Part shown: positions 1 through 42,627 of the stretch, piece by piece
Layout: each line of letters starts with the position of its first letter
How positions within the stretch are numbered: position 1 is the stretch's first letter
From: a virus
Reading direction: 5' to 3' (one strand)
Virus record (IMG/VR): IMGVR_UViG_3300015366_000097
Location: 1 to 42,627 of that record
Length of the DNA stretch: 42,627 bases
Notes under the pieces: model-generated
Database searches by the model: none
Seen by the model: the letters and a program-made list of their open reading frames with translations, nothing else
Told to the model about the DNA's origin: nothing
Made by a program: the position numbers and the translations under genes

Positions 1-53
1 AGGTTCGCGCCGTAAAGGTCCGCGCCGCTAAGGTTCGCGCTGCGAAGGTTCGC
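1..53. repeat. Terminal direct repeat, left copy
   Basis: Bases 1-53 are identical to 42575-42627. The pentapeptide gene reads through the join in frame, so this is most simply the overlap of a circular assembly. It lies inside a 15-bp tandem array, so the true number of units at the join may differ from what is shown. Confidence 0.93.
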
Positions 54-188
54 GCTGCGAAGGTTCGCGCTGCGAAGGTTCGCTTTCGCGTTTATCGCGG
101 CTTGAACGGTAATCGCCATGCTGTTGTTTTCGCATTCGTGGCTAAAAATCACTTCAAGCGAAAAACGAGATTTGATTTCAATTTTCAT
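1..188 (-). CDS. Pentapeptide-repeat protein, N-terminal part (continues at 42574)
   Basis: This is the 5' part of a gene that crosses the circle junction. Joined to 42574-42250 it encodes about 170 residues. The ATG at 188 is preceded by GGAGAGGT at 194-201. The first ~35 residues (MKIEIKSRFSLEVIF...) are followed by tandem five-residue units of the A(N/D)LxS/G type (ANLRS, ADLYG), the hallmark of right-handed quadrilateral beta-helix pentapeptide proteins. It has its own promoter (222-251) just downstream of the terminator of the preceding operon, and its stop overlaps the start of the clamp-like gene. Pentapeptide proteins of this size are common in phages and their role is usually unknown. 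DNA mimicry is known for some family members but cannot be inferred here. Confidence 0.85.
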   Translation of the reverse strand, partial: MKIEIKSRFSLEVIFSHECENNSMAITVQAAINAKANLRSANLRSANLRSANLSGADLYGAN

Positions 189-10919: not shown

Positions 10920-12931
10920 TGCCCCCACCACCGGCCACAGAATGCCGCCCCGATGCCTTTTATGACACGGAGTGTTTCCCCAATTATTGGCTTTTGAAAC
11001 TTCGCGTCAAAGGTGGTTTGATTTACAGCTTTAGGATTCGCGCGGGTCAGGCGTTCACCGTGAGTGAAGCCGCCCGCATTCGGTTGTTGTTTAACGCTTA
11101 CCGTGCCGTCAGTTTTAACGGCAACAACTATGACGTGCCCATGATTGCGGCCGCATTGGCTGGTTATACCACCGAGCAACTCAAATGGCTGAATGACCGA
11201 ATCATTGTCGAGAAAGTCAAGCCGTGGGAACTTGGAGTTCCCGATTGGAAGCCCGTAGACCACATTGACGTGATGGAAGTCGCACCAGGTGCAGGCGGCC
11301 AAAAGCAATACGCTGGACGCATCCATTGCCCCACCATGCGCGATTTGCCGTATGACCCTGGCCACTACCTAAGTGAAGCCGAGATTGTGGAAGTTGACAC
11401 CTATTGTGAAAATGACCTTGATGTTTTGGAAATGCTGTTTGATGCGTTGCGCCCTCAAATTCGACAGCGCGAAAAGCTGGGTGCGCGATATGCAATTGAC
11501 CTTCGCAGCAAGTCAGATGCACAAGTTGCCGAGGCGGTGCTTAGAAAGCGCTGCGAACAAGCCACGGGTCAAAGAATTTACAAACCTCAAATCGATTGGA
11601 ATTTGAGTTTTCGCTATAAGGTGCCATCGTTCATTTCGTATCAAATGCCACAGCTTCAACGTGCTTTGGAATTGGTACGTGAATCTGTGTTTCAGCTTGG
11701 TGCAAAAGGCACTGTCGAAATGCCACCACAGCTTGAAGGCTTGTTGATTACGATAAATCATTCAACGTATAAGGTGGGCATTGGCGGTTTGCATAGCAGC
11801 GAAAAGACCGTGACACACAAATCCGATGAAAATTGGATTATTCGTGACAATGATGTTGCCAGCTATTACCCCACATTGATTTTGAATTCAGGCGAATGGC
11901 CGTCCGCATTGGGCCCCGCATTCCTTCAAGAATTCGGCTTGATTAAAGATGAACGACTTGCGGCCAAAGAGTTGCAAGCAAAATTGAAAAAGTTGGGACA
12001 GACCGAGGATGCCCAATACGAAGACGCGAAAACCGATAACGAAGGCGGCAAAATTATGATTAACGGCACTTTCGGCAAGACCGGAAGTCAATACAGCATT
12101 TTGTTTGCGCCGTCGATGTTGATTCAAACAACCATCACCGGCCAACTTTCGTTGCTGATGCTGATTGAATGGCATGAGCTGTACGGAATCCCCGTCATAT
12201 CGGCCAACACCGATGGTGTGGTTATCAAGTGCCCACGCAACATGGTCCACGTCAGCGAAGCTCTTATTGCCGAATGGCAAAAGCGCACGGGTTTGGAAAT
12301 GGAAACCGTGGAATATCGCGCGGTGTATTCGCGTGATGTGAACAACTATTTTGCAATCAAGACCGACGGTGACGTGAAGCGCAAAGGCGAGTATAGCAAA
12401 GCGGGTTTGGTCGAAAAGAAAAACCCTGATGTGGAAATTTGCGCCGACGCTGTGGCTGAATTCCTAGCCAATGGCACACCCATTCTTTACACCATCAGCG
12501 CGTGCCGCGACATTCGCAAATTCGTCACCATCCAAAAAGTTAACGGGGGCGGCGTGAAGATGTGGGGTGAAGGTCCGCGCAAAGGTGCGTTGGTACGTGA
12601 CATGGTTGGCGTGCTGGAAGCCAATGGCTGGGTTAAAGAAGGTCGCCAATGGCGACGCGGCGACATGTTGGCAGCGGCGGCCACGGCCTATGCTGCGTGT
12701 TTTGAACAGCAAACGCCCGAATATTTAGGCAAGGTTGTGCGCTGGTATTACAGCACTCAAGCCCCTGGGCCCATTGTATATGCCAGCAATGGCAACACGG
12801 TCAGCCTTTCCTATGGTGCCCGCCCGTGCATGAATCTGCCCGTGGAATTCCCCACCGACATTGATTATTCATGGTACGTGGACAAGGCCGAATCGATGTT
12901 GAAAGACGTTGGTTTTTATGTGTTGACATAG
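10910..12931 (+). CDS. DNA polymerase, family B-like, with 3'-5' exonuclease domain
   Basis: 673 residues. The exonuclease domain has FYDTE (D19, E21), SFNGNNYDVPM (D75) and DTYCENDLDVLEML near 163-176, the three Exo motifs. The polymerase domain has DNDVASYYPTLIL near 313 (motif A, D-x-x-x-x-Y-P), INGTFGKTGS near 385 (motif B) and SANTDGVVIKC near 430 (motif C). In motif C the usual DTD is NTD. The second aspartate, the essential metal ligand in family B enzymes, is kept, and this NTDG form seems common in phages. This would be the replicative polymerase, working with the primase-helicase (1322) and perhaps the clamp-like protein (41689). The start overlaps the preceding small gene and lacks a good Shine-Dalgarno. 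The last bases overlap the promoter at 12923. Confidence 0.9.
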   Translation: MQIVPPPPATECRPDAFYDTECFPNYWLLKLRVKGGLIYSFRIRAGQAFTVSEAARIRLLFNAYRAVSFNGNNYDVPMIAAALAGYTTEQLKWLNDRIIVEKVKPWELGVPDWKPVDHIDVMEVAPGAGGQKQYAGRIHCPTMRDLPYDPGHYLSEAEIVEVDTYCENDLDVLEMLFDALRPQIRQREKLGARYAIDLRSKSDAQVAEAVLRKRCEQATGQRIYKPQIDWNLSFRYKVPSFISYQMPQLQRALELVRESVFQLGAKGTVEMPPQLEGLLITINHSTYKVGIGGLHSSEKTVTHKSDENWIIRDNDVASYYPTLILNSGEWPSALGPAFLQEFGLIKDERLAAKELQAKLKKLGQTEDAQYEDAKTDNEGGKIMINGTFGKTGSQYSILFAPSMLIQTTITGQLSLLMLIEWHELYGIPVISANTDGVVIKCPRNMVHVSEALIAEWQKRTGLEMETVEYRAVYSRDVNNYFAIKTDGDVKRKGEYSKAGLVEKKNPDVEICADAVAEFLANGTPILYTISACRDIRKFVTIQKVNGGGVKMWGEGPRKGALVRDMVGVLEANGWVKEGRQWRRGDMLAAAATAYAACFEQQTPEYLGKVVRWYYSTQAPGPIVYASNGNTVSLSYGARPCMNLPVEFPTDIDYSWYVDKAESMLKDVGFYVLT

Positions 12932-12952
12932 ATAAATTATTTATCGTATAAT
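12923..12952 (+). promoter_or_regulatory. Promoter with palindromic operator for the small-gene cluster
   Basis: Consensus -35 TTGACA (12923-12928), 18-bp spacer holding the palindrome GATAAATTATTTATC (12931-12945), consensus -10 TATAAT (12947-12952). The 30 bases 12921-12950 are repeated exactly on the minus strand at 253-224. The stop codon of the polymerase lies inside the promoter. The start site would be about 25 bases before the ATG at 12986. Confidence 0.85.
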
Positions 12953-12985
12953 TTCAGGCATCAACAACCAAACGGAGAAAGCACC

Positions 12986-13117
12986 ATGAAATTTTTTATC
13001 GTCACTGTGGGCAACCTCATTTACCGCGATTTGCAACCATCAAGCGTTGACGCTGTGATTCACGCAATTGAGCGTTTCCCAAATGCCCGTCGCATCAGCG
13101 TGAAGGCTTGCAAATGA
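12986..13117 (+). CDS. Small hypothetical protein, 43 residues
   Basis: MKFFIVTVGNLIYRDLQPSS...HAIERFPNARRISVKACK. CGGAGAAAGCACC precedes the ATG and it is the first gene after the consensus promoter, so it is probably strongly expressed early. A beta strand then amphipathic helix pattern suggests a small soluble protein. Its stop overlaps the next start (ATGA). The function is unknown; position and size fit a host-takeover or accessory protein (inference). Confidence 0.75.
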   Translation: MKFFIVTVGNLIYRDLQPSSVDAVIHAIERFPNARRISVKACK

Positions 13118-13290
13118 CAAATGGAATTCGCTTCGTCAAATTGACACCCACAGGCGAATTCCATCAGGGCGTTGAGCTCATGTTGGCTTCTGACGTCACC
13201 GAAGACGTCAAAGCCCTTTTGAGTGCCAACATGCTGACACCGGAAATGTTTGGCAACGCCCATATTCAAGAAAACCAAGCCGTTCAATAA
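13114..13290 (+). CDS. Small hypothetical protein, 58 residues
   Basis: MTNGIRFVKLTPTGEFHQGVELMLASDVTEDVKALLSANMLTPEMFGNAHIQENQAVQ. It starts at the ATG overlapping the previous stop, so translation is likely coupled. It is acidic with helical character after residue 25, has no membrane segment and is not recognised. It is part of the eight-gene rightward cluster 12986-14427. Confidence 0.72.
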   Translation: MTNGIRFVKLTPTGEFHQGVELMLASDVTEDVKALLSANMLTPEMFGNAHIQENQAVQ

Positions 13291-13299
13291 AGGGCCACC

Positions 13300-13596
13300 A
13301 TGGAACACGATAAAAACGCGTTTGCCCAGCTTACGCCACAACAACGAAGCCGAACGCATTGCCAGTTCGCCCAAAGCGGCTGCAATGCCCCTGAAAGCGA
13401 ATGCCTAGGGGTTTGCCTCACTCACATTGGAAAACGCTACAAAGGCCACAAGATTGCTGAAATCCTGTACCGTGCGTCGCATCGGGCATTTTTGGTTTTG
13501 CTTGATGACGATTCGACCGTCTTGTTGGAAACCGAAGCCCAGCAACGTCAATTTGCACAGGATGTGATTGAAGGGAAATACGATGCCAGCGCGTGA
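13300..13596 (+). CDS. Small cysteine-containing hypothetical protein
   Basis: 98 residues. Four cysteines at 21, 28, 35 and 39 (HCQFAQSGCNAPESECLGVC) could bind one zinc. The rest (KIAEILYRASHRAFLVLLDDDSTVLLETEAQQRQFAQDVIEG) looks like a small beta/alpha domain. AAAGGGCCACC precedes the ATG. Its end overlaps the next gene by 14 bases. The function is unknown. Confidence 0.75.
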   Translation: MEHDKNAFAQLTPQQRSRTHCQFAQSGCNAPESECLGVCLTHIGKRYKGHKIAEILYRASHRAFLVLLDDDSTVLLETEAQQRQFAQDVIEGKYDASA

Positions 13597-13738
13597 ATCT
13601 GCCGCAATGGCAAAAGCCCGAAAGCTAGTCATTCAAAAGGGGCTCACAGCTTACGCAGCCGCTCAAAAGGCTGGCATCACACGGTCGGCTATTTACATGT
13701 CCGCTTGGTACAAAGAATGGAAAGGCTCACAGAAATGA
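13583..13738 (+). CDS. Small HTH-like protein, 51 residues
   Basis: MPARESAAMAKARKLVIQKG, then LTAYAAAQKAGITRSAIYMSAWYKEW. The pattern T-x-x-x-A-A-x-x-A-G-I-T-x-S-A-I-Y is a classic helix-turn-helix of the kind seen in excisionase-like and terminase-small-like phage proteins. AAGGGAAATACG precedes the ATG, and its stop overlaps the next start (ATGA). It is a candidate DNA-binding regulator for this phage. It is too short to assign further. Confidence 0.72.
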   Translation: MPARESAAMAKARKLVIQKGLTAYAAAQKAGITRSAIYMSAWYKEWKGSQK

Positions 13739-14049
13739 AAAAGCCAACACAATGCCAATCCCGCCAATACGGTGATCAAATCATTTGCGCGGCGTGTGGC
13801 CTCAATTGGGACGCCAACGACCCCGAGCCGCCGAAATGTGGCAACGTGGACCAGCGCACCAAGCAAGCCAAAGCCGTGTCGAAATTTGAAGAAGTGGGCA
13901 AGCCTCAAACGCAATTGCGCATGCCCTATGCGCTGCCCGTCGAAGTGGCACAAGAAATGGCTAAAGTGTTCCGCGCAAATTGTGCGGCCAATGATGTTCA
14001 CGGCATGCAAGCCGCATACCGCCTTTTTCTAGACAGGATGACAACATGA
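13735..14049 (+). CDS. Zinc-ribbon-like small protein
   Basis: 104 residues. An N-terminal cysteine set (C7, C18, C21, C35; IICAACGLNWDANDPEPPKCG) looks like a zinc ribbon. The C-terminal half (LPVEVAQEMAKVFRANCAANDVHGMQAAYRLFLDRM) is helical. The ATG overlaps the stop of the HTH gene, and its own end overlaps the next ATG. The role is unknown. Confidence 0.78.
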   Translation: MKKPTQCQSRQYGDQIICAACGLNWDANDPEPPKCGNVDQRTKQAKAVSKFEEVGKPQTQLRMPYALPVEVAQEMAKVFRANCAANDVHGMQAAYRLFLDRMTT

Positions 14050-14213
14050 AAATCACAATCGCTGTGACGGCTATATTGGCCGCTGTGTTTTTGTATTTCG
14101 CGCAAGTTGATTTGGAAGCCGCCCGAATCGATAGCGAACACTATTGCCAAATGGTCAAGGCTGGGCGTTGGCCTGATTATGAAAAACGGTTTGACACCGA
14201 TTGCGTGAAATGA
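14046..14213 (+). CDS. Small membrane-anchored protein, 55 residues
   Basis: MKITIAVTAILAAVFLYFAQVDLEAARIDSEHYCQMVKAGRWPDYEKRFDTDCVK. One N-terminal hydrophobic segment (residues 4-19) is followed by a soluble part with two cysteines (34 and 53), which suggests an Nin-Cout topology with a possible periplasmic disulfide. It overlaps both neighbours by ATGA-type junctions. The function is unknown. Position shortly before the lysis genes on the other strand invites an i-spanin comparison, but this is weak. Confidence 0.72.
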   Translation: MKITIAVTAILAAVFLYFAQVDLEAARIDSEHYCQMVKAGRWPDYEKRFDTDCVK

Positions 14214-14332
14214 CCGTGTGGCCCTTTCCGCAGCATCCACCCACACCGTGGACGCAAAAGCAAATCAAAGAGTACGCGCAAAAGCAACGCGACCAATTAC
14301 CGGAAAGTCCAATATGTCACAAGGCTTTTTAA
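14210..14332 (+). CDS. Very small hypothetical protein, 40 residues
   Basis: MTVWPFPQHPPTPWTQKQIKEYAQKQRDQLPESPICHKAF. The ATG overlaps the preceding stop (ATGA). It is Pro-rich at the N-terminus, then a basic helix. Packing between two supported genes is the main evidence, and no homology is recognised. Confidence 0.55.
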   Translation: MTVWPFPQHPPTPWTQKQIKEYAQKQRDQLPESPICHKAF

Positions 14333-16877: not shown

Positions 16878-17354
16878 TTACTCCGCGAAGAAGCTTTGAC
16901 GGAATGGCAGCCACACATTGGCGAATGCCGCGACATTGTCTTTGGTCACTTTCAGCACATTACCGTTTGAAAAGTAGAAGTTCGTCGGCGCAAATTCGAC
17001 GCCTTGAAATTGGGACGCAATCAGCACAGCGGTAACGCCATTTTGATCGTCGCGTGTCGCACTGCACATCACGCCCTCAAATTCAACGCCTACCAATTTG
17101 GGATTGCTGGCGCTGGTCTCGACCCATTCAGGCAATTCGGGCTTTGGTGTTTTGGCAAAATCTTTGAGCTTGAAGCCAAAGCGTTCGATTGTGGTGGTGT
17201 CGGTGACGACTTCCCAGCACTTCGCTTCGTCATTTTTGTGCAAGCTGTAAATGGTACCGACCAGCATCACCATGAAAGTGGCATGGTCAGGGGTATCGGC
17301 AATCGCGTCGAGGTCTTCGCGGCTGTTGATGATTGTGTTAGAAAGTGATCCCAT
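16878..17354 (-). CDS. Hypothetical protein downstream of the DGR reverse transcriptase
   Basis: 158 residues from the ATG at 17354 (MGSLSNTIINSREDLDAIADTPDHATFMVMLVGTIYSL...). GGATGGAAAACAGAT precedes it. It overlaps the last 17 bases of the reverse transcriptase gene, so it is co-transcribed and perhaps coupled. The fold looks mixed alpha/beta with no membrane part. Such proteins lie after tail-fiber genes in some phages and could be chaperone- or virion-associated. I do not recognise the family. Whether it belongs to the DGR is open. Confidence 0.75.
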   Translation of the reverse strand: MGSLSNTIINSREDLDAIADTPDHATFMVMLVGTIYSLHKNDEAKCWEVVTDTTTIERFGFKLKDFAKTPKPELPEWVETSASNPKLVGVEFEGVMCSATRDDQNGVTAVLIASQFQGVEFAPTNFYFSNGNVLKVTKDNVAAFANVWLPFRQSFFAE

Positions 17355-18321
17355 ATCTGTTTTCCATCCATTTGAAAAGATTATTCGTGTCTGCCCATTT
17401 TGCATGACCTTGCCACGATGCTGCAAACTTGGCCAAGCTATCCATATCGTCGTGTTTGACATAGTGTGCGACTTTGCGTTTCGCCCGTGTGACTGAATCC
17501 TTACGCAACAGCTTGTGCGTGGGCCAAATGCGATAGCCTAGGAAATTCACACCTTGCGAAATTGGCGAGACTTGCCATTTGCTGATGTTTAGTTTCAGCT
17601 TGTCCATTGAAAAGTCATTGATTCTCAAAAACGAATCGACCAACTGGTCTTTGTCGTGGCCGAGAATGACGATATCGTCCATGTAACGGGCCCATTGGCG
17701 GTGCTTCAATTCAAAGTGAATAAAGCGGTCGATTGCGTTGCCATACACATTGGCAAACAATTGGCTTGTGAGGCTCCCAATGGGGATGCCACGCCCTTCA
17801 AGCGGGATGATTTCGCGCAACACGCGAAGCGTCTTTTCGCAATCAATCTTGCGGTTAATCATTGCATGCAACACGTCATGGTCAATGCTGGGAAAAAACT
17901 TTGAATAGTCAGTTTTCAGAAAGTATGTCGCTTTTGTTGAGCGCATGGCCGCTTGCAAATACTCAACACCTTTGTGGGTGCCCTTACCAACACGACAAGC
18001 GAAAATTTGCGGCATCAAGGTGCGTTCAAATATCGGAGCAACCACATTGCATAGCGCGTGCTGAACCAATCGGTCTTTGAAGTCCAATGCGGATATGAGG
18101 CGCGGTTTAGGCTCATAAACAAGAAATTGGCGATAACCGCCAATCTTGTATTCACCCGAACGCAATTCCTCTTGCACACTCAACAAGTTGACTTCGGAAA
18201 ATTCTTTGAACTCAAGATAACCAAACGTCAACTTTTTGCCTTTGGCGGTCTTTTCATAGGCCAATCGCAAATTGTCAATGTCGGTTATTTGTTCGATTAA
18301 ATGTCGATGTTTCTTTACCAT
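17338..18321 (-). CDS. DGR reverse transcriptase
   Basis: 327 residues from the ATG at 18321. Motif A is FLKTDYSKFFPSIDH (D138) and motif C is RYMDD (213-216). Motif B is RGIPIGSLTSQLFANVY, where IGSLTSQ is the (I/V/L)GxxxSQ form that separates DGR reverse transcriptases from retroviral and group II enzymes. SQGVNFLGYRIW near 250 is motif E. Size and lack of extra domains fit DGRs. It would copy the TR-containing RNA into adenine-mutagenised cDNA that replaces the VR. The open frame extends upstream to 18939 through the TR, but that part is non-coding sequence without stops. It overlaps the following gene. Confidence 0.95.
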   Translation of the reverse strand: MVKKHRHLIEQITDIDNLRLAYEKTAKGKKLTFGYLEFKEFSEVNLLSVQEELRSGEYKIGGYRQFLVYEPKPRLISALDFKDRLVQHALCNVVAPIFERTLMPQIFACRVGKGTHKGVEYLQAAMRSTKATYFLKTDYSKFFPSIDHDVLHAMINRKIDCEKTLRVLREIIPLEGRGIPIGSLTSQLFANVYGNAIDRFIHFELKHRQWARYMDDIVILGHDKDQLVDSFLRINDFSMDKLKLNISKWQVSPISQGVNFLGYRIWPTHKLLRKDSVTRAKRKVAHYVKHDDMDSLAKFAASWQGHAKWADTNNLFKWMENRYGITF

Positions 18322-18471
18322 AAAGAAGTCGGCTGCGCGTTTGGATTTCCTACTAAGCGTTATGCCGAACCCATGTGTGTATTCCCCGAAGGAGGACAAA
18401 CCCGGCTGACCACACTTTGTTTGGTCTGCCCGCCAAGCCGTAGCGTTGACGGAGCGATGAAGTAATGTCGC
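18322..18471 (-). ncRNA. DGR spacer (Sp) region of the TR RNA
   Basis: 150 bases between the 3' end of the TR and the reverse transcriptase start, without a supported gene. In the well-studied Bordetella phage DGR a spacer of about 140 nt at the same place is part of the template RNA and needed for cDNA priming. Position and length match; the structure was not modelled. Confidence 0.65.
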
Positions 18472-18585
18472 CACAGGCAAAGCGCGACCCGATGTTACTA
18501 TTCGAGTTCGACGCGGCGTTATTCCAATTAGAGTACCGAGAACCGGAGTTCGACCCGTTGTTCCAGTTGCCCCCAAGGATGACCG
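18472..18585 (-). repeat. DGR template repeat (TR)
   Basis: 114 bases that match the VR (19008-19121) at a constant offset of 536 with 106 identities and no gaps. All eight differences (18495, 18496, 18502, 18507, 18508, 18559, 18561, 18580) are adenines on the minus (template-sense) strand. The TR is rich in AAC and AAT codons when read in the VR frame. It starts 6 bases after the Avd-like gene stop. Confidence 0.96.
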
Positions 18586-18590
18586 CCTAT

Positions 18591-18965
18591 TTACCCAGGT
18601 TGCCCCAGCTTTTGTCTCCCTTTCACCCATGCGCCTACCATTGCCCCAACATCCGCCAACAGAATTTGCGCTGTCAGTTGTTGATGTGGCGTAAGCGCAT
18701 GGATGGAAAGGAGAAATCGCATCCAGAAACGTAGCTCCGCAAGCCCTGCGTCTGCCACGTAAATTTTTGATATTTGGTTTGATTTCCCCGCCTGAAAGAA
18801 CAAGTCCGGCATCCCGAGAAGGCATTTCAAAAACATTTCCCGAGCTACCCCGTGTTTGCGCGGCATCGACTGTGCAATTGGATACAAATAGGCAATCACC
18901 CGTTCGTATTTCTCCACAATTGCCATTTGGTCGTAGCATTTGCCAAGTTCCTTAACTGGTTCCAT
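18591..18965 (-). CDS. avd: DGR accessory variability determinant (Avd-like)
   Basis: 124 residues, all helical (EKYERVIAYLYPIAQSMPRKHGVAREMFLKCLLGMPDLFFQAGK...LAELRFWMRFLLSIHALTPHQQLTAQILLADVGAMVGAW). Length, basic charge and the four-helix pattern, with Y-x-x-x-x-x-P-x-x-R-K-x-x and L-R-x-x-x-R, fit the Avd/four-helix-bundle family. Avd forms a pentameric ring that binds the reverse transcriptase and template RNA and is essential for mutagenic homing. It lies between VR and TR, the usual place. The ATG is 7 bases beyond the hairpin and lacks a clear Shine-Dalgarno. Confidence 0.88.
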   Translation of the reverse strand: MEPVKELGKCYDQMAIVEKYERVIAYLYPIAQSMPRKHGVAREMFLKCLLGMPDLFFQAGKSNQISKIYVADAGLAELRFWMRFLLSIHALTPHQQLTAQILLADVGAMVGAWVKGRQKLGQPG

Positions 18966-18971
18966 TTAGAC

Positions 18972-18987
18972 GGGCGCTTTCGCGCCC
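18972..18987 (-). promoter_or_regulatory. GAAA-loop hairpin downstream of the VR
   Basis: On the minus strand GGGCGC-GAAA-GCGCCC, directly after the tail-fiber stop and 20 bases beyond the VR end. In the Bordetella phage DGR a G+C-rich hairpin/cruciform with a GAAA loop sits just after the VR and promotes target recognition. No U-run follows, so it is not a typical terminator. Confidence 0.75.
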
Positions 18988-20652
18988 TCAATCAAGTTGC
19001 AGGTGGTCACAGGCAAAGCGCGACCCGATGCCACTATCCGAGAACGACGCGGCGTTATTCCAATTAGAGTACCGAGAACCGGAGTTCGACCCGTAGATCC
19101 AGTTGCCCCCAAGGAGGACCGTATTCGGTGCGTTGTATTCCGAACCACGGCTTGCCGTTGTGCCCGTTGCTGGGTTCCAACCGCCGGTAGCGTATGCGCC
19201 ACCACGTTCGCGGCCCCATATTTGCAACACGCCCGTGGCTTGAATCACGCCCCATTTGGATGTGTAAACCGCGTTCAAAATGGTGTTGTTTTGGTCGGTA
19301 CCGATTGACGATGCTTCGGTTGTACCGTAAGCCGCCGACATGAATTCTTGTTGCGTAGGGCAGCGCTTACCAAAGGCAGTCGCCAACTCCATGGCTTGCC
19401 ACCAGTTGTACGAACCGTAAGTGGCCGTTCCGTTGCCGCCAAACATGGTGGGCACTTTGGGTGGGCTTGCGCCGTCACCCATCAACACGTTGTATTTGCT
19501 TGAACCGTTGGTGATGGCGTCCACACCCGTCAAATAAATATCCATCCAAAAGCCACCGGCCACAAGCGTCATGCCGCGCGGGTCAGAAGCGGTGGGGCGG
19601 AATTTCAAATCCCACAGTGAATATTGGTTGATTGCCGGTGTCGTGTCACCACCCGATTGCGCAGTTGCGTTGCCGCCTGGTGCGTAATGGAAGCCGCCAA
19701 TCTTGCGCGAATTGGCCGTGGTGTAACCCGAGGGTGCGCTAAAGCTGGAATCAGCACGACAAGTGCCGTCGGTACACACGTAAATGGCGTAATCCGTACC
19801 CGCTGTGAGCGTGGGCATGGTGATGTTGGTATCTGTCGCAAAGGTCTGCAAAAGGCCAGCAACCGTAACGATGGTTCCAGCCTTGATTGTGGCCGTGCCA
19901 GCACCCGTCTTTGTGAAAACGGGAGTCGTGCTGTCCACTTTGTAAAAAGCACCAGCGTTGGTCAAATTGGAAACTGCAGCGGCCAAATAAATGTTGGTGC
20001 CGTCACCCACGATTGTTTGTGTCAATGTGACCACCACACCCGTTCCGGCGGCAGTCTTGCACGTCACGGTGTAACCGCCAGTCGTGTTGTTGATAACAAT
20101 CCAATCTTTGGCGATATTGGGGAAAATCAAATTCAAGTTGGCGGTCAATGTGCCAGTGATGACGATGATTGGTTTGCCGTATTGCAAGCCCGTGAGCGTC
20201 ACGTTTGCGTTGGTCATTGTGACAGCTGTCGCGCCGCTTGTGAAATCCGGCACCCAGCCAGCGGCTACAGCACCAGCACTTTCAGGGTCCGTGACGTTGG
20301 CGTCCACAGTGTTGAACCAATAGCCGAGGCCGTCCGAACGCAACACACGTGCGCCTTTTGGATAGCCGCCCACGTTGGTGTCATTCGCAAAAGTGCCGTC
20401 GAAGGGATAGCCGCCGCCCGCGTTGGCCCAGCGAATCACAGCCGATAGGCCATAAAGAATGCCGTTCATGTCCAAACCTGATGGCGGTGTGCCACCGGCG
20501 GCCAAAGGCGTGCGGGTTAATGGTGGAAAACCATCAGTCAGCGATGCGGCACCGTTTGTGATGCCGATTTGTGATGCGGTGGGGATTGTGTTTTTAGCGC
20601 CAGCATTGGCGAAAGGCAAAACCAGCTTTGCCGGGGCGTTAGTTAACTGCAT
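18988..20652 (-). CDS. Tail fiber / receptor-binding protein with DGR-variable C-type-lectin-like domain
   Basis: 554 residues from the ATG at 20652 (AAGGTGCCGTTT upstream). The N-terminal ~140 residues (FANAGAKNTIPTASQIGITNGAASLTDGFPPLT...SGLDMNGILYGLSAVIRWANAGGGYPF) are a common phage tail-fiber head. Beta-rich shaft sequence follows (about 150-350). From about 360 a formylglycine-generating-enzyme/C-type-lectin-like domain begins (GGFWMDIYLTGVD, WWQAMELATAFGKRCPTQQEFMSAAYG, GGYAT-like turns). It ends in the VR (GGNWIYGSNSGSRYSNWNN...SGIGSRFACDH). The protein would bind the host surface, and the DGR changes its tip. It lies directly after the DUF2612 baseplate gene with a 14-base overlap. 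Confidence 0.93.
   Translation of the reverse strand: MQLTNAPAKLVLPFANAGAKNTIPTASQIGITNGAASLTDGFPPLTRTPLAAGGTPPSGLDMNGILYGLSAVIRWANAGGGYPFDGTFANDTNVGGYPKGARVLRSDGLGYWFNTVDANVTDPESAGAVAAGWVPDFTSGATAVTMTNANVTLTGLQYGKPIIVITGTLTANLNLIFPNIAKDWIVINNTTGGYTVTCKTAAGTGVVVTLTQTIVGDGTNIYLAAAVSNLTNAGAFYKVDSTTPVFTKTGAGTATIKAGTIVTVAGLLQTFATDTNITMPTLTAGTDYAIYVCTDGTCRADSSFSAPSGYTTANSRKIGGFHYAPGGNATAQSGGDTTPAINQYSLWDLKFRPTASDPRGMTLVAGGFWMDIYLTGVDAITNGSSKYNVLMGDGASPPKVPTMFGGNGTATYGSYNWWQAMELATAFGKRCPTQQEFMSAAYGTTEASSIGTDQNNTILNAVYTSKWGVIQATGVLQIWGRERGGAYATGGWNPATGTTASRGSEYNAPNTVLLGGNWIYGSNSGSRYSNWNNAASFSDSGIGSRFACDHLQLD
19008..19121 (-). repeat. DGR variable repeat (VR)
   Basis: The 3' end of the tail-fiber gene, residues about 511-549. 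Compared with the TR-encoded sequence, six residues differ: 513 (I to L), 519 (N to I), 520 (N to Y), 537 (N to F), 539 (N to D) and 541 (N to G). Both ends of the VR are identical to the TR, as expected for a homing boundary. Confidence 0.96.
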
Positions 20653-21307
20653 AAACGGCACCTTCTTGAATGAATGGGGCTTGACCAAAAGGAGCGGCCG
20701 ACCCCGTACCAGCTTCCGAAAAGCCGAAAACCGGCGTATTGGTGTTGATGAGTATAGCACCCACCCCCGCTGGACGAGGCAATGCGCCGGACTGCGTCAT
20801 AATCGCAAATTCGTAAGAAGTCAGCAAGAATTCAAACGTGTAGCGCAAATTCATGCCGCCCAAATCATTGACGTAACAGCGACCACGCCCAGCGAACATG
20901 TTTTGCAAAAGCTGATTCAATGATGAGGCGGACGTGTTCGAGATATTCGCCAAAGCCTTGACCAAAATCAATTGGCGGTAAGCATCGTCACCCAGCAAAT
21001 AAGTTTGCGTCGCACCAACGGTACCGTCATAAAAGGGTTGTTCATCGAACGGATACGAGCCGGGCAAAGCGTCGCTAAAGCCAAAATAATTGGGAGCATT
21101 TGGTATTTTCAAAGCCCGCCCAATGTTGACAATGCGGCCCCAAACGTCAAGGCCAAAACCCTGCGCCGTTTCCACATTCCACACGAAGTTGTAAAAGGCT
21201 TCAAAGTCGGCGCGTGGGTCTAAATACTCATTCATGTTTTGAATGAGTTGGCGAATGGTCGAACTGTTGCCGTATTGGCTGATGATGGTTTGTTCAACAT
21301 TCAACAT
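20639..21307 (-). CDS. DUF2612 tail/baseplate protein
   Basis: 222 residues from the ATG at 21307 (MLNVEQTIISQYGNSSTIRQLIQNMNEYLDPRADFEAFYNFVWNVETAQGFGLDVWGRIVNIGR...). The conserved GxGLDVWGRIVxxxR block and the later DDAYRQLILVKALANIS define DUF2612, which is found between the baseplate J-like protein and tail fibers in small myophages. It probably links the fiber to the baseplate (inference from position). It starts 4 bases after the J-like gene. Confidence 0.88.
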   Translation of the reverse strand: MLNVEQTIISQYGNSSTIRQLIQNMNEYLDPRADFEAFYNFVWNVETAQGFGLDVWGRIVNIGRALKIPNAPNYFGFSDALPGSYPFDEQPFYDGTVGATQTYLLGDDAYRQLILVKALANISNTSASSLNQLLQNMFAGRGRCYVNDLGGMNLRYTFEFLLTSYEFAIMTQSGALPRPAGVGAILINTNTPVFGFSEAGTGSAAPFGQAPFIQEGAVYAVN

Positions 21308-21311
21308 AAAT

Positions 21312-22736
21312 TTAGACCAATGTGACCGAAATATCTGATGCGGACAATGTGGGCGCTTGGTCAATCCCAACGCTTAAAGTCGTAAGCGTGGGAGTTGCGC
21401 TTCCAAGCAAAATCGAAATGACCGACACGTTTGCCGCCACCGCGGATACAGCTGCGTAATAGCGGCTTGCGAAGATTGATGAACCAATGCGTTCGCGGTT
21501 CGTGCCGTCAGCACCGTTGAAACGCGCAATGATGGCCGCTTTGGTCAGCGCCACGATATTGGCTGGCAATGTGGGATTGTTGGCAATCTGCACCGCGAAT
21601 TTGATTGGCAGAGCCGAGGGGCGATTGAACTTGACCGTATAGGACGGCTGTGGGTAGCTGTACCCACTGGTATCTTGCACCACCACCGACGTGTTGCCGT
21701 TGTAGTCGCAGCCGACGTCTTTGTGGGTCCAAATGGCTTTGGCAATGTCAGCATCAGTCCCGCCCACCACAGCGATGTAAAGAGAGTTTGGAGCCAATGC
21801 GTAGTTGGTAGGGCCAAAGGCCACAGCCGTTGCCATCATTGCCACACTTGACACCGATTGCGAATTGTTGACCATATAAGTGCCAGCGCCGCCGGTTCCG
21901 GTATTCAGCGCAGTAATGATGGTGCCAGCGGTCACGCCTGTGCCCGTGATGACGCTACCGACCACCAAAGTGGCACCGGCCGCCATGGCGCTGACTGTCA
22001 ATGTCGTGCCTGAGATTGCGCCCATGAATGACGCGATGCCCTTGGGGTTGTCAAGCGCGTACACATCCAGCACGTTGGCCAGGTCGTACACGTTGGCGTA
22101 AATTGAAGGCAGCGTGCCCAACGAATTGAGCGCCACTGAGTTTTTGCGTCGGTACTCAAAATCTGCGCGACTTTCGACCACGGATCCCATGACGCCATCG
22201 GCTGGGTTGGTGATGGTGGACCAACCTGGAATGGCTTGGTAGACCGAAGTTAATGTGCCGGCCGCGCAAGCAATCGGGCCAGTTTGGACGTTTTGGAAAT
22301 TCGCCGTCACGGAACCTGTGGAATCAATCGTTACGTCACCTTCATTGATGTAGGTGTTGCCCGATGTGTCTTGGGCCAACGTACCGGCTGGGATGACGGT
22401 ACCCGTGATGCCGCTAACCGTACAAACCACAGCCGTGGATGTGGCCGCCTTGCGGGTCAGGAAATAGATTCGGGCGATTGCGTCTTGAAATCGGTCGGTC
22501 GCATATTGGGGGTCAACTTGATTGACAAAATATGCAAATTCATTGTTTTTGTCGCCGATGATGGCCGCTTGGCTTGATGCAAGCTGACCTTGTGGGGTTT
22601 CCAATGCCGAATTGAGGCCACCACCGAAGGCGGAATTCATGTCACTTTGAACACCCGCCAAAACGTCGGTTTCGGCTGGGACTACCAATCCAGCTTGGGT
22701 AAACTGAATTTTTGGCACGCTAGAAGGTGACGCCAT
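21312..22736 (-). CDS. Baseplate J-like protein
   Basis: 474 residues from the ATG at 22736 ([42 protein letters not shown]...). The opening V-P-x-x-x-x-V-L-x-G-V-x-x-D-x-x-x-A-F and [27 protein letters not shown] are typical of phage Mu gp47/P2 J-like proteins, which form the baseplate wedge. Unusually, about 60 residues near 245-305 ([49 protein letters not shown]) form a beta-rich module. The same module occurs twice in the decoration protein at 33472. It overlaps the gp25-like gene by 17 bases. Confidence 0.9.
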
Positions 22737-42253: not shown

Positions 42254-42627
42254 TTCGCACCCCACAAAACAAAGTGTGCTTCAATCAAAAACAAAGCTGC
42301 CTTGTATTCTTTGCCGTGCTGGTTGTCGCCGTGTTCAGCTTCCAGCTTTGCGCCAAACTCTTCAAGTGACCCAAAGAAGCAACCGGCACGCAAGTACACG
42401 CCCTTTTCTGTTTGGAACGCGAGCAAATTATCAGACCGCGAGCCAATGGGGCCAACTTGGAAGAACGGGCGATCACCGGCCAATTTTCCAAAATCGCCAA
42501 GGTTCGCGCTGCCAAGGTCCGCGCTGCAAAGGTTCGCGCTGCCAAGGTTCGCGCTGCCAAGGTCCGCGCTGCAAAGGTTCGCGCCGTAAAGGTCCGCGCC
42601 GCTAAGGTTCGCGCTGCGAAGGTTCGC
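42250..42627 (-). CDS. Pentapeptide-repeat protein, C-terminal part (continued from 188)
   Basis: This is the 3' part of the junction-spanning gene. It holds the rest of the repeat run (ADLGS, ANLGS, ADLYG types), ending in ANLGDFGKLAG. A non-repeat tail of about 75 residues follows, containing GPIGSRSDNLLAFQ, RAGCFFGSLEEF and HGKEY. A tail of this kind (GPIGSR, a C-G-C-F-x-G-T/SLEEF core) follows pentapeptide repeats in other phage proteins. The stop TGA at 42250-42252 overlaps the ATG of the clamp-like gene (ATGA), so the two are probably translationally coupled. The opposite strand also carries a long open frame across here, which is a shadow of the repeats. Confidence 0.85.
   Translation of the reverse strand, partial: ANLRSANLSGADLYGANLCSADLGSANLGSANLCSADLGSANLGDFGKLAGDRPFFQVGPIGSRSDNLLAFQTEKGVYLRAGCFFGSLEEFGAKLEAEHGDNQHGKEYKAALFLIEAHFVLWGAK
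42498..42627 (-). repeat. 15-bp tandem array encoding pentapeptides (continues into 1-83)
   Basis: Units of the form AAGGTTCGCGCTGC(G/C), with small variants such as AAGGTCCGCGCCGCT, repeat head to tail across the junction. About nine units lie in 42498-42627 and about six in 1-83, partly duplicated by the terminal overlap. On the minus strand each unit encodes one pentapeptide. The DNA-level near-identity makes unit gain and loss by slippage likely. Confidence 0.85.
42575..42627. repeat. Terminal direct repeat, right copy
   Basis: Identical to bases 1-53. Removing one copy gives a circle of about 42,574 bp in which the gene at 188 continues into 42574 without a break. Confidence 0.93.

Follow-up and report, generated by a model that had tools for sequence, protein, structure and literature searches.

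What does the minus-strand unit at positions 20652-17338 do for the phage that carries it, and how does its history relate to that of the surrounding virion genes? The window, that is, the whole stretch of DNA analysed, is the 42,627-bp virus record IMGVR_UViG_3300015366_000097 (positions 1 to 42,627). Our answer, held at a probability of about 0.93, is that the unit is a diversity-generating retroelement (DGR) of the BPP-1 lineage, very probably functional, which diversifies the C-type-lectin tip of a dwarf-myovirus tail fibre. In the BPP-1 system the reverse transcriptase (RT) and Avd copy the RNA of the template repeat (TR) into cDNA with errors at adenines, and this cDNA replaces the variable repeat (VR) at the IMH and hairpin. 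By analogy, in the window the TR RNA would be copied by the RT with Avd into adenine-mutated cDNA, the VR would be replaced at the IMH/hairpin, and the new fibre tips would change the receptor specificity of the phage.

Organisation of the locus

The late genes of the window include terminase, portal, major head protein, tail sheath, tape measure, baseplate hub, wedge and Baseplate_J, and judged from these genes the virion that hosts the unit is a dwarf myovirus with a sheath, a baseplate and a contractile tail. Its sheath is 47% identical, over the full length, to that of the dwarf myovirus Aeromonas phage vB_AsaM-56. The features on which the argument draws are the following:

30212-28731, minus strand: tail sheath (305 bits)
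20639-21325, minus strand: DUF2612 gene of baseplate/fibre-attachment type (PF11041, 188 bits)
18988-20652, minus strand: tail fibre, the target gene, 554 aa, start at 20652
18993-19121, minus strand: VR; adenine-variable core 19121-19019, then an IMH-type 3′ end ending in TGTGACCACCTGCAACTTG
18972-18987, minus strand: hairpin/cruciform GGGCGC-GAAA-GCGCCC, by direct reading
18591-18965, minus strand: avd (accessory variability determinant), 124 aa (NCBIfam DivGenRetAVD 101.5 bits, cut-off 80)
18457-18585, minus strand: TR; core 18585-18483, with 24 adenines and ten AAC/AAT codons in the VR frame
18328-18455, minus strand: DGR RNA spacer (Sp) between TR and RT (Rfam RF03022 Phage_DGR)
17338-18321, minus strand: reverse transcriptase, 327 aa, motifs IGSLTSQ and YMDD
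16878-17348, minus strand: Bbp4-like gene, 37% identical to BPP-1 Bbp4 over residues 1-59

The transcription order within 20652-17338 is thus tail fibre with VR, hairpin, avd, TR, spacer and RT, and the unit is, as far as its letters tell, a complete, intact-looking DGR. The DUF2612 gene lies directly upstream of the fibre gene and overlaps its start, and the VR forms the last 42 codons of that gene. The 3′ boundaries of VR and TR were placed by homology to the BPP-1 repeats; the range 19008-19121 given earlier for the VR is the portion that aligns with the TR. The 533-aa RT reading frame in the mechanical list starts too early, the start homologous to Brt being 18321.

The original prediction, made from the letters of the window, had described a small contractile-tail phage in which a complete DGR, aimed at the receptor-binding tip and with all its parts in one minus-strand unit (17338-20652), directly follows a DUF2612 gene. 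The sheath, baseplate and DUF2612 genes agree with that description, and every part that it listed (variable-domain tail fibre, hairpin, Avd-like gene, TR/VR pair, RT with IGxxxSQ and YMDD) was recovered at its place and on its strand.

A 15-nt tandem repeat of the same type occupies both ends of the window (1-83 and 42495-42627); the contig probably breaks inside this repeat array, and the window may represent a nearly complete genome. A 43-nt inverted repeat is also present (221-263 and 12911-12953, 95% identical), the second copy of which is found in the closest relative, L002, as well. No tRNAs were found in the window, and a near-DNA search of phage records with the 13 kb around the cassette gave no match. 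No host was found, because the single match of the RT in the genome collection is a segment of 47% identity in a Bacteroidetes MAG.

Differences between the template and variable repeats

The TR (18585-18472) and the VR (19121-19008), which lie 536 nt apart, are 93% identical in an ungapped alignment. The 103-nt core has eight mismatches, every one of them at one of its 24 TR adenines (hypergeometric p = 3.1e-6), and the two repeats agree at 80 of 80 non-A letters. When TR adenines were treated as free, no second VR was found in the window, the next best position matching 39 of the 80 non-A letters. With the proteins aligned, each of the ten AAC/AAT codons of the TR coincides with one of the ten AAC codons in that of BPP-1.

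The closest relative, IMGVR_UViG_3300022746_000042 (L002), belongs to the same phage family (sheath 95%, RT 92%, fibre 92%, DUF2612 98% identity) and has a different VR, changed at 12 adenines of its own TR. The VRs of the two phages differ at 11 of 23 shared TR-adenine sites and at 6 of 84 others (odds ratio 11.9, p 2.6e-5), and three of these six correspond to the three non-A differences between the TRs, each of which is mirrored in its own VR. In wider comparisons, where the elements are related and the counts are accordingly non-independent, 151 of the 159 VR/TR mismatches counted in 13 elements coincide with a TR adenine. When the window is set against 11 relatives, the TRs differ at 120 non-A sites, and at 118 of these each VR has the letter of its own TR (L020, out of register in the pairwise TR comparison, is left out of the latter count). 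Such counts are what repeated copying from TR to VR would leave. Comparison of VRs in related genomes had been proposed as a check of the original prediction, and in L002 and in the 11 relatives it supports TR-to-VR transfer. An exact-pattern scan of the IMH region found no near-identical viral contigs with other VRs beyond L002.

Several related contigs (L021, L025, L010 and L013) end within or near the Mtd/VR-TR region, as is expected if the population is variable in the VR or if assembly is disturbed by the repeat. Mtd-type targets, each with a Bbp4-like gene directly after Mtd, are present in L022 (1050-1230), L023 (2650-2830) and L024 (6850-7030). The VR of L022/L023 differs from that of L024 at 26 sites in about 90 nt, against 24 sites in the 700 nt upstream; RT, Avd, a TR copy and the GRNA hairpin were not found on these three contigs, and a DGR acting in trans, or one lost recently, would explain the VR differences.

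Alternative explanations

Could the RT come from a retron, a group II intron or a defence system, with the TR/VR pair being an ordinary duplication of a gene end? The RT matches Pfam RVT_1 (70 bits) and the PHROG reverse transcriptase family (399 bits), and its RT domain has a weak similarity to group II, retron and DRT models, as this explanation would have it, but the scores are far below the curated cut-offs (104.9 bits against 300 for the group II intron type, 56.7 bits against 235 for the retron type). The protein carries the DGR-type motif IGSLTSQ (IGxxxSQ replacing QGxxxSP) together with YMDD (YxDD), it shares 65% identity with Bordetella phage BPP-1 Brt over residues 1-326, and its best five matches among phage records are all from Bordetella phages. 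When solved structures were searched with phmmer, the Brt chain of 8ub7 gave an E-value of 3e-147, about 130 orders of magnitude better than that of the next RT (6e-16). By sequence score the RT therefore groups with the BPP-1 DGR RT and not with retrons or group II introns, the grouping that had been named as contrary to the original prediction. The duplication of a gene end is opposed by three DGR-specific characteristics, which are the adenine-only mismatches, Avd and the DGR RNA. Avd exceeds the cut-off of Pfam bAvd as well as that of DivGenRetAVD, is 68% identical to BPP-1 Avd and matches the BPP-1 Bbp7/Avd structures with E 2e-54 (phmmer), and the spacer matches RF03022 over model positions 1-127 of 127 (104.1 bits, cut-off 50, E 2e-17); on a priming site in the spacer the literature offered nothing usable. 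The mismatch pattern, the RT scores, the structure matches and the DGR RNA refute this explanation, and the probability left to it is negligible.

The hairpin raises a different doubt, namely that the DGR was recently inactivated, so that all its parts are present, homing is no longer efficient and the VR records past events only. The hairpin lies directly 3′ of the fibre stop codon, 5 bp past the VR end; as in BPP-1 and the relatives, a GC-rich VR end is followed by TGTGACCACCTGCAACTTG, the stop codon and the hairpin. In position and in its GAAA loop it fits the DGR type, but its 6-bp stem is shorter than the 7-10 bp of published phage DGR hairpins, and in BPP-1 the removal of 2 bp from the 8-bp stem leaves homing markedly lower (PMC3240598). 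The VR is changed at only 8 of the 24 TR adenines, two thirds of them being unchanged, which could also be taken as a sign of lost activity. On the other hand, the RT, Avd and Sp RNA are all intact. The VR has an open frame, its differences from that of L002 are mostly at adenines, and each VR has taken up changes specific to its own TR since the window and L002 split. Moreover, the hairpin is present in 14 of 14 related elements at a near-constant distance and with a GRNA loop, its stem varying in sequence yet remaining complementary, and by a simple perfect-pair count 8 of the 14, the window among them, have 6-bp stems, which in this clade stand beside heavily diversified VRs. The natural range of stem lengths is therefore wider than the published one. 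Recent inactivation is accordingly improbable in our judgement, and the reading of the unit as a functional BPP-1-type DGR is retained.

The relatives of the window provide comparative data on which features of the hairpin, IMH, spacer RNA and fibre junction such elements have to retain: the GRNA loop and its distance hardly vary, the sequence of the stem is free, and natural stems of 6 bp are common. The picture of how a DGR works is not changed by the element in the window.

Relation to BPP-1 and the composite tail fibre

Identity to the BPP-1 counterparts is 65% for the RT, 68% for Avd and 56% for the C-terminal fibre part; together with the ten shared AAY codons, this places the element in the founding DGR lineage, that of BPP-1. 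The likeness to the BPP-1 DGR (mtd-avd-TR-brt) extends to the gene order, the DGR RNA family, the GAAA-loop hairpin and the AAY codon positions. The differences are that the hairpin stem has 6 bp where that of BPP-1 has 8 bp, that TR and VR share less sequence past the GC-rich core, that another and longer N-terminus precedes the Mtd part, and that BPP-1 is short-tailed whereas the window phage is a contractile-tailed dwarf myovirus. This lineage, whose closest named relatives are Bordetella phages, had been missed in the original prediction, and the element is less novel than was held there. Its value is that of a well-supported natural homologue of the BPP-1 model system, which occurs in a virion unrelated to that of BPP-1 and has a dozen relatives at graded distances.

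The fibre itself is composite. Residues 213-553 match Mtd structures (phmmer, E 3e-108), residues 245-348 match Pfam mtd_2nd (107 bits) and residues 235-554 are 56% identical to BPP-1 Mtd; on these alignments residues 235-554 are a homologue of the Mtd second domain and C-type-lectin domain. Residues 1 to about 213, by comparison, are a fibre/adaptor N-terminus of dwarf-myovirus type, with matches to tail fibres of Pseudomonas, Klebsiella, Pantoea and Xanthomonas phages, and L021, from the same myovirus family, keeps this N-terminus at 74%. In the relatives whose fibre start is available, the closest ones excepted, the fibre matches begin at residues 183-236, mostly 212-236, and this interval marks, by alignment, a recurrent fibre junction. 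A natural joining point of an Mtd tip to another fibre is thereby provided, which is useful for studies of fibre modularity.

When the whole BPP-1 genome was compared with the window, only the Mtd C-terminal part, Avd, the RT and the N-terminus of the Bbp4-like protein matched, apart from a weak 25% match between the DUF2800 protein of the window and the BPP-1 exonuclease. Since the matches are limited in this way to the cassette genes, the cassette and the virion have different histories. We infer that Mtd from about residue 235, the DGR and the Bbp4-like gene form a module that was grafted onto another fibre N-terminus and would be exchanged between phages of different virion type. In Vibrio cholerae HE-09 a 2.9-kb BPP-1-type mtd-atd-TR-RT cassette is likewise found in an unrelated phage, a kappa-type prophage (PMC3521204), the phage and the host being different ones and the likeness resting on the published description; mtd-like DGR targets in small myoviruses have also been mentioned (PMC10743442). 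The DGR of the window is therefore of a known kind.

The Bbp4-like gene has no match in Pfam, but the N-terminal 60-90 residues of its product are conserved after the RT in related cassettes, and L003, L005, L010, L012-L015, L017, L018, L020 and L022-L024 carry a homologous segment next to the RT or Mtd. Because the gene also follows Mtd genes that have no adjacent DGR, its product is probably a partner of Mtd in assembly or anchoring rather than a part of the DGR. We lean slightly towards a more general proposal, in which one transferable tropism module would consist of the DGR, the gene for this Mtd partner and the second and lectin domains of Mtd. The module would be attached to unrelated fibre N-termini, in podoviruses and dwarf myoviruses among others, with a break that recurs near fibre residue 212-236. 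In the 50.7-kb relative L018 (G001) a sheath was not found and a DNA ejection protein was matched. L013 contains two tandem Mtd-like genes (12627-14251), of which the second is truncated where the contig stops; a hairpin follows the first VR, and a Bbp4-like gene lies upstream. According to its annotation, the deposited record L032 (LR745708.1) is a laboratory T7 whose fibre is a gp17-Mtd chimaera, and thus an artificial counterpart of the Mtd fusion that occurs naturally in the window.
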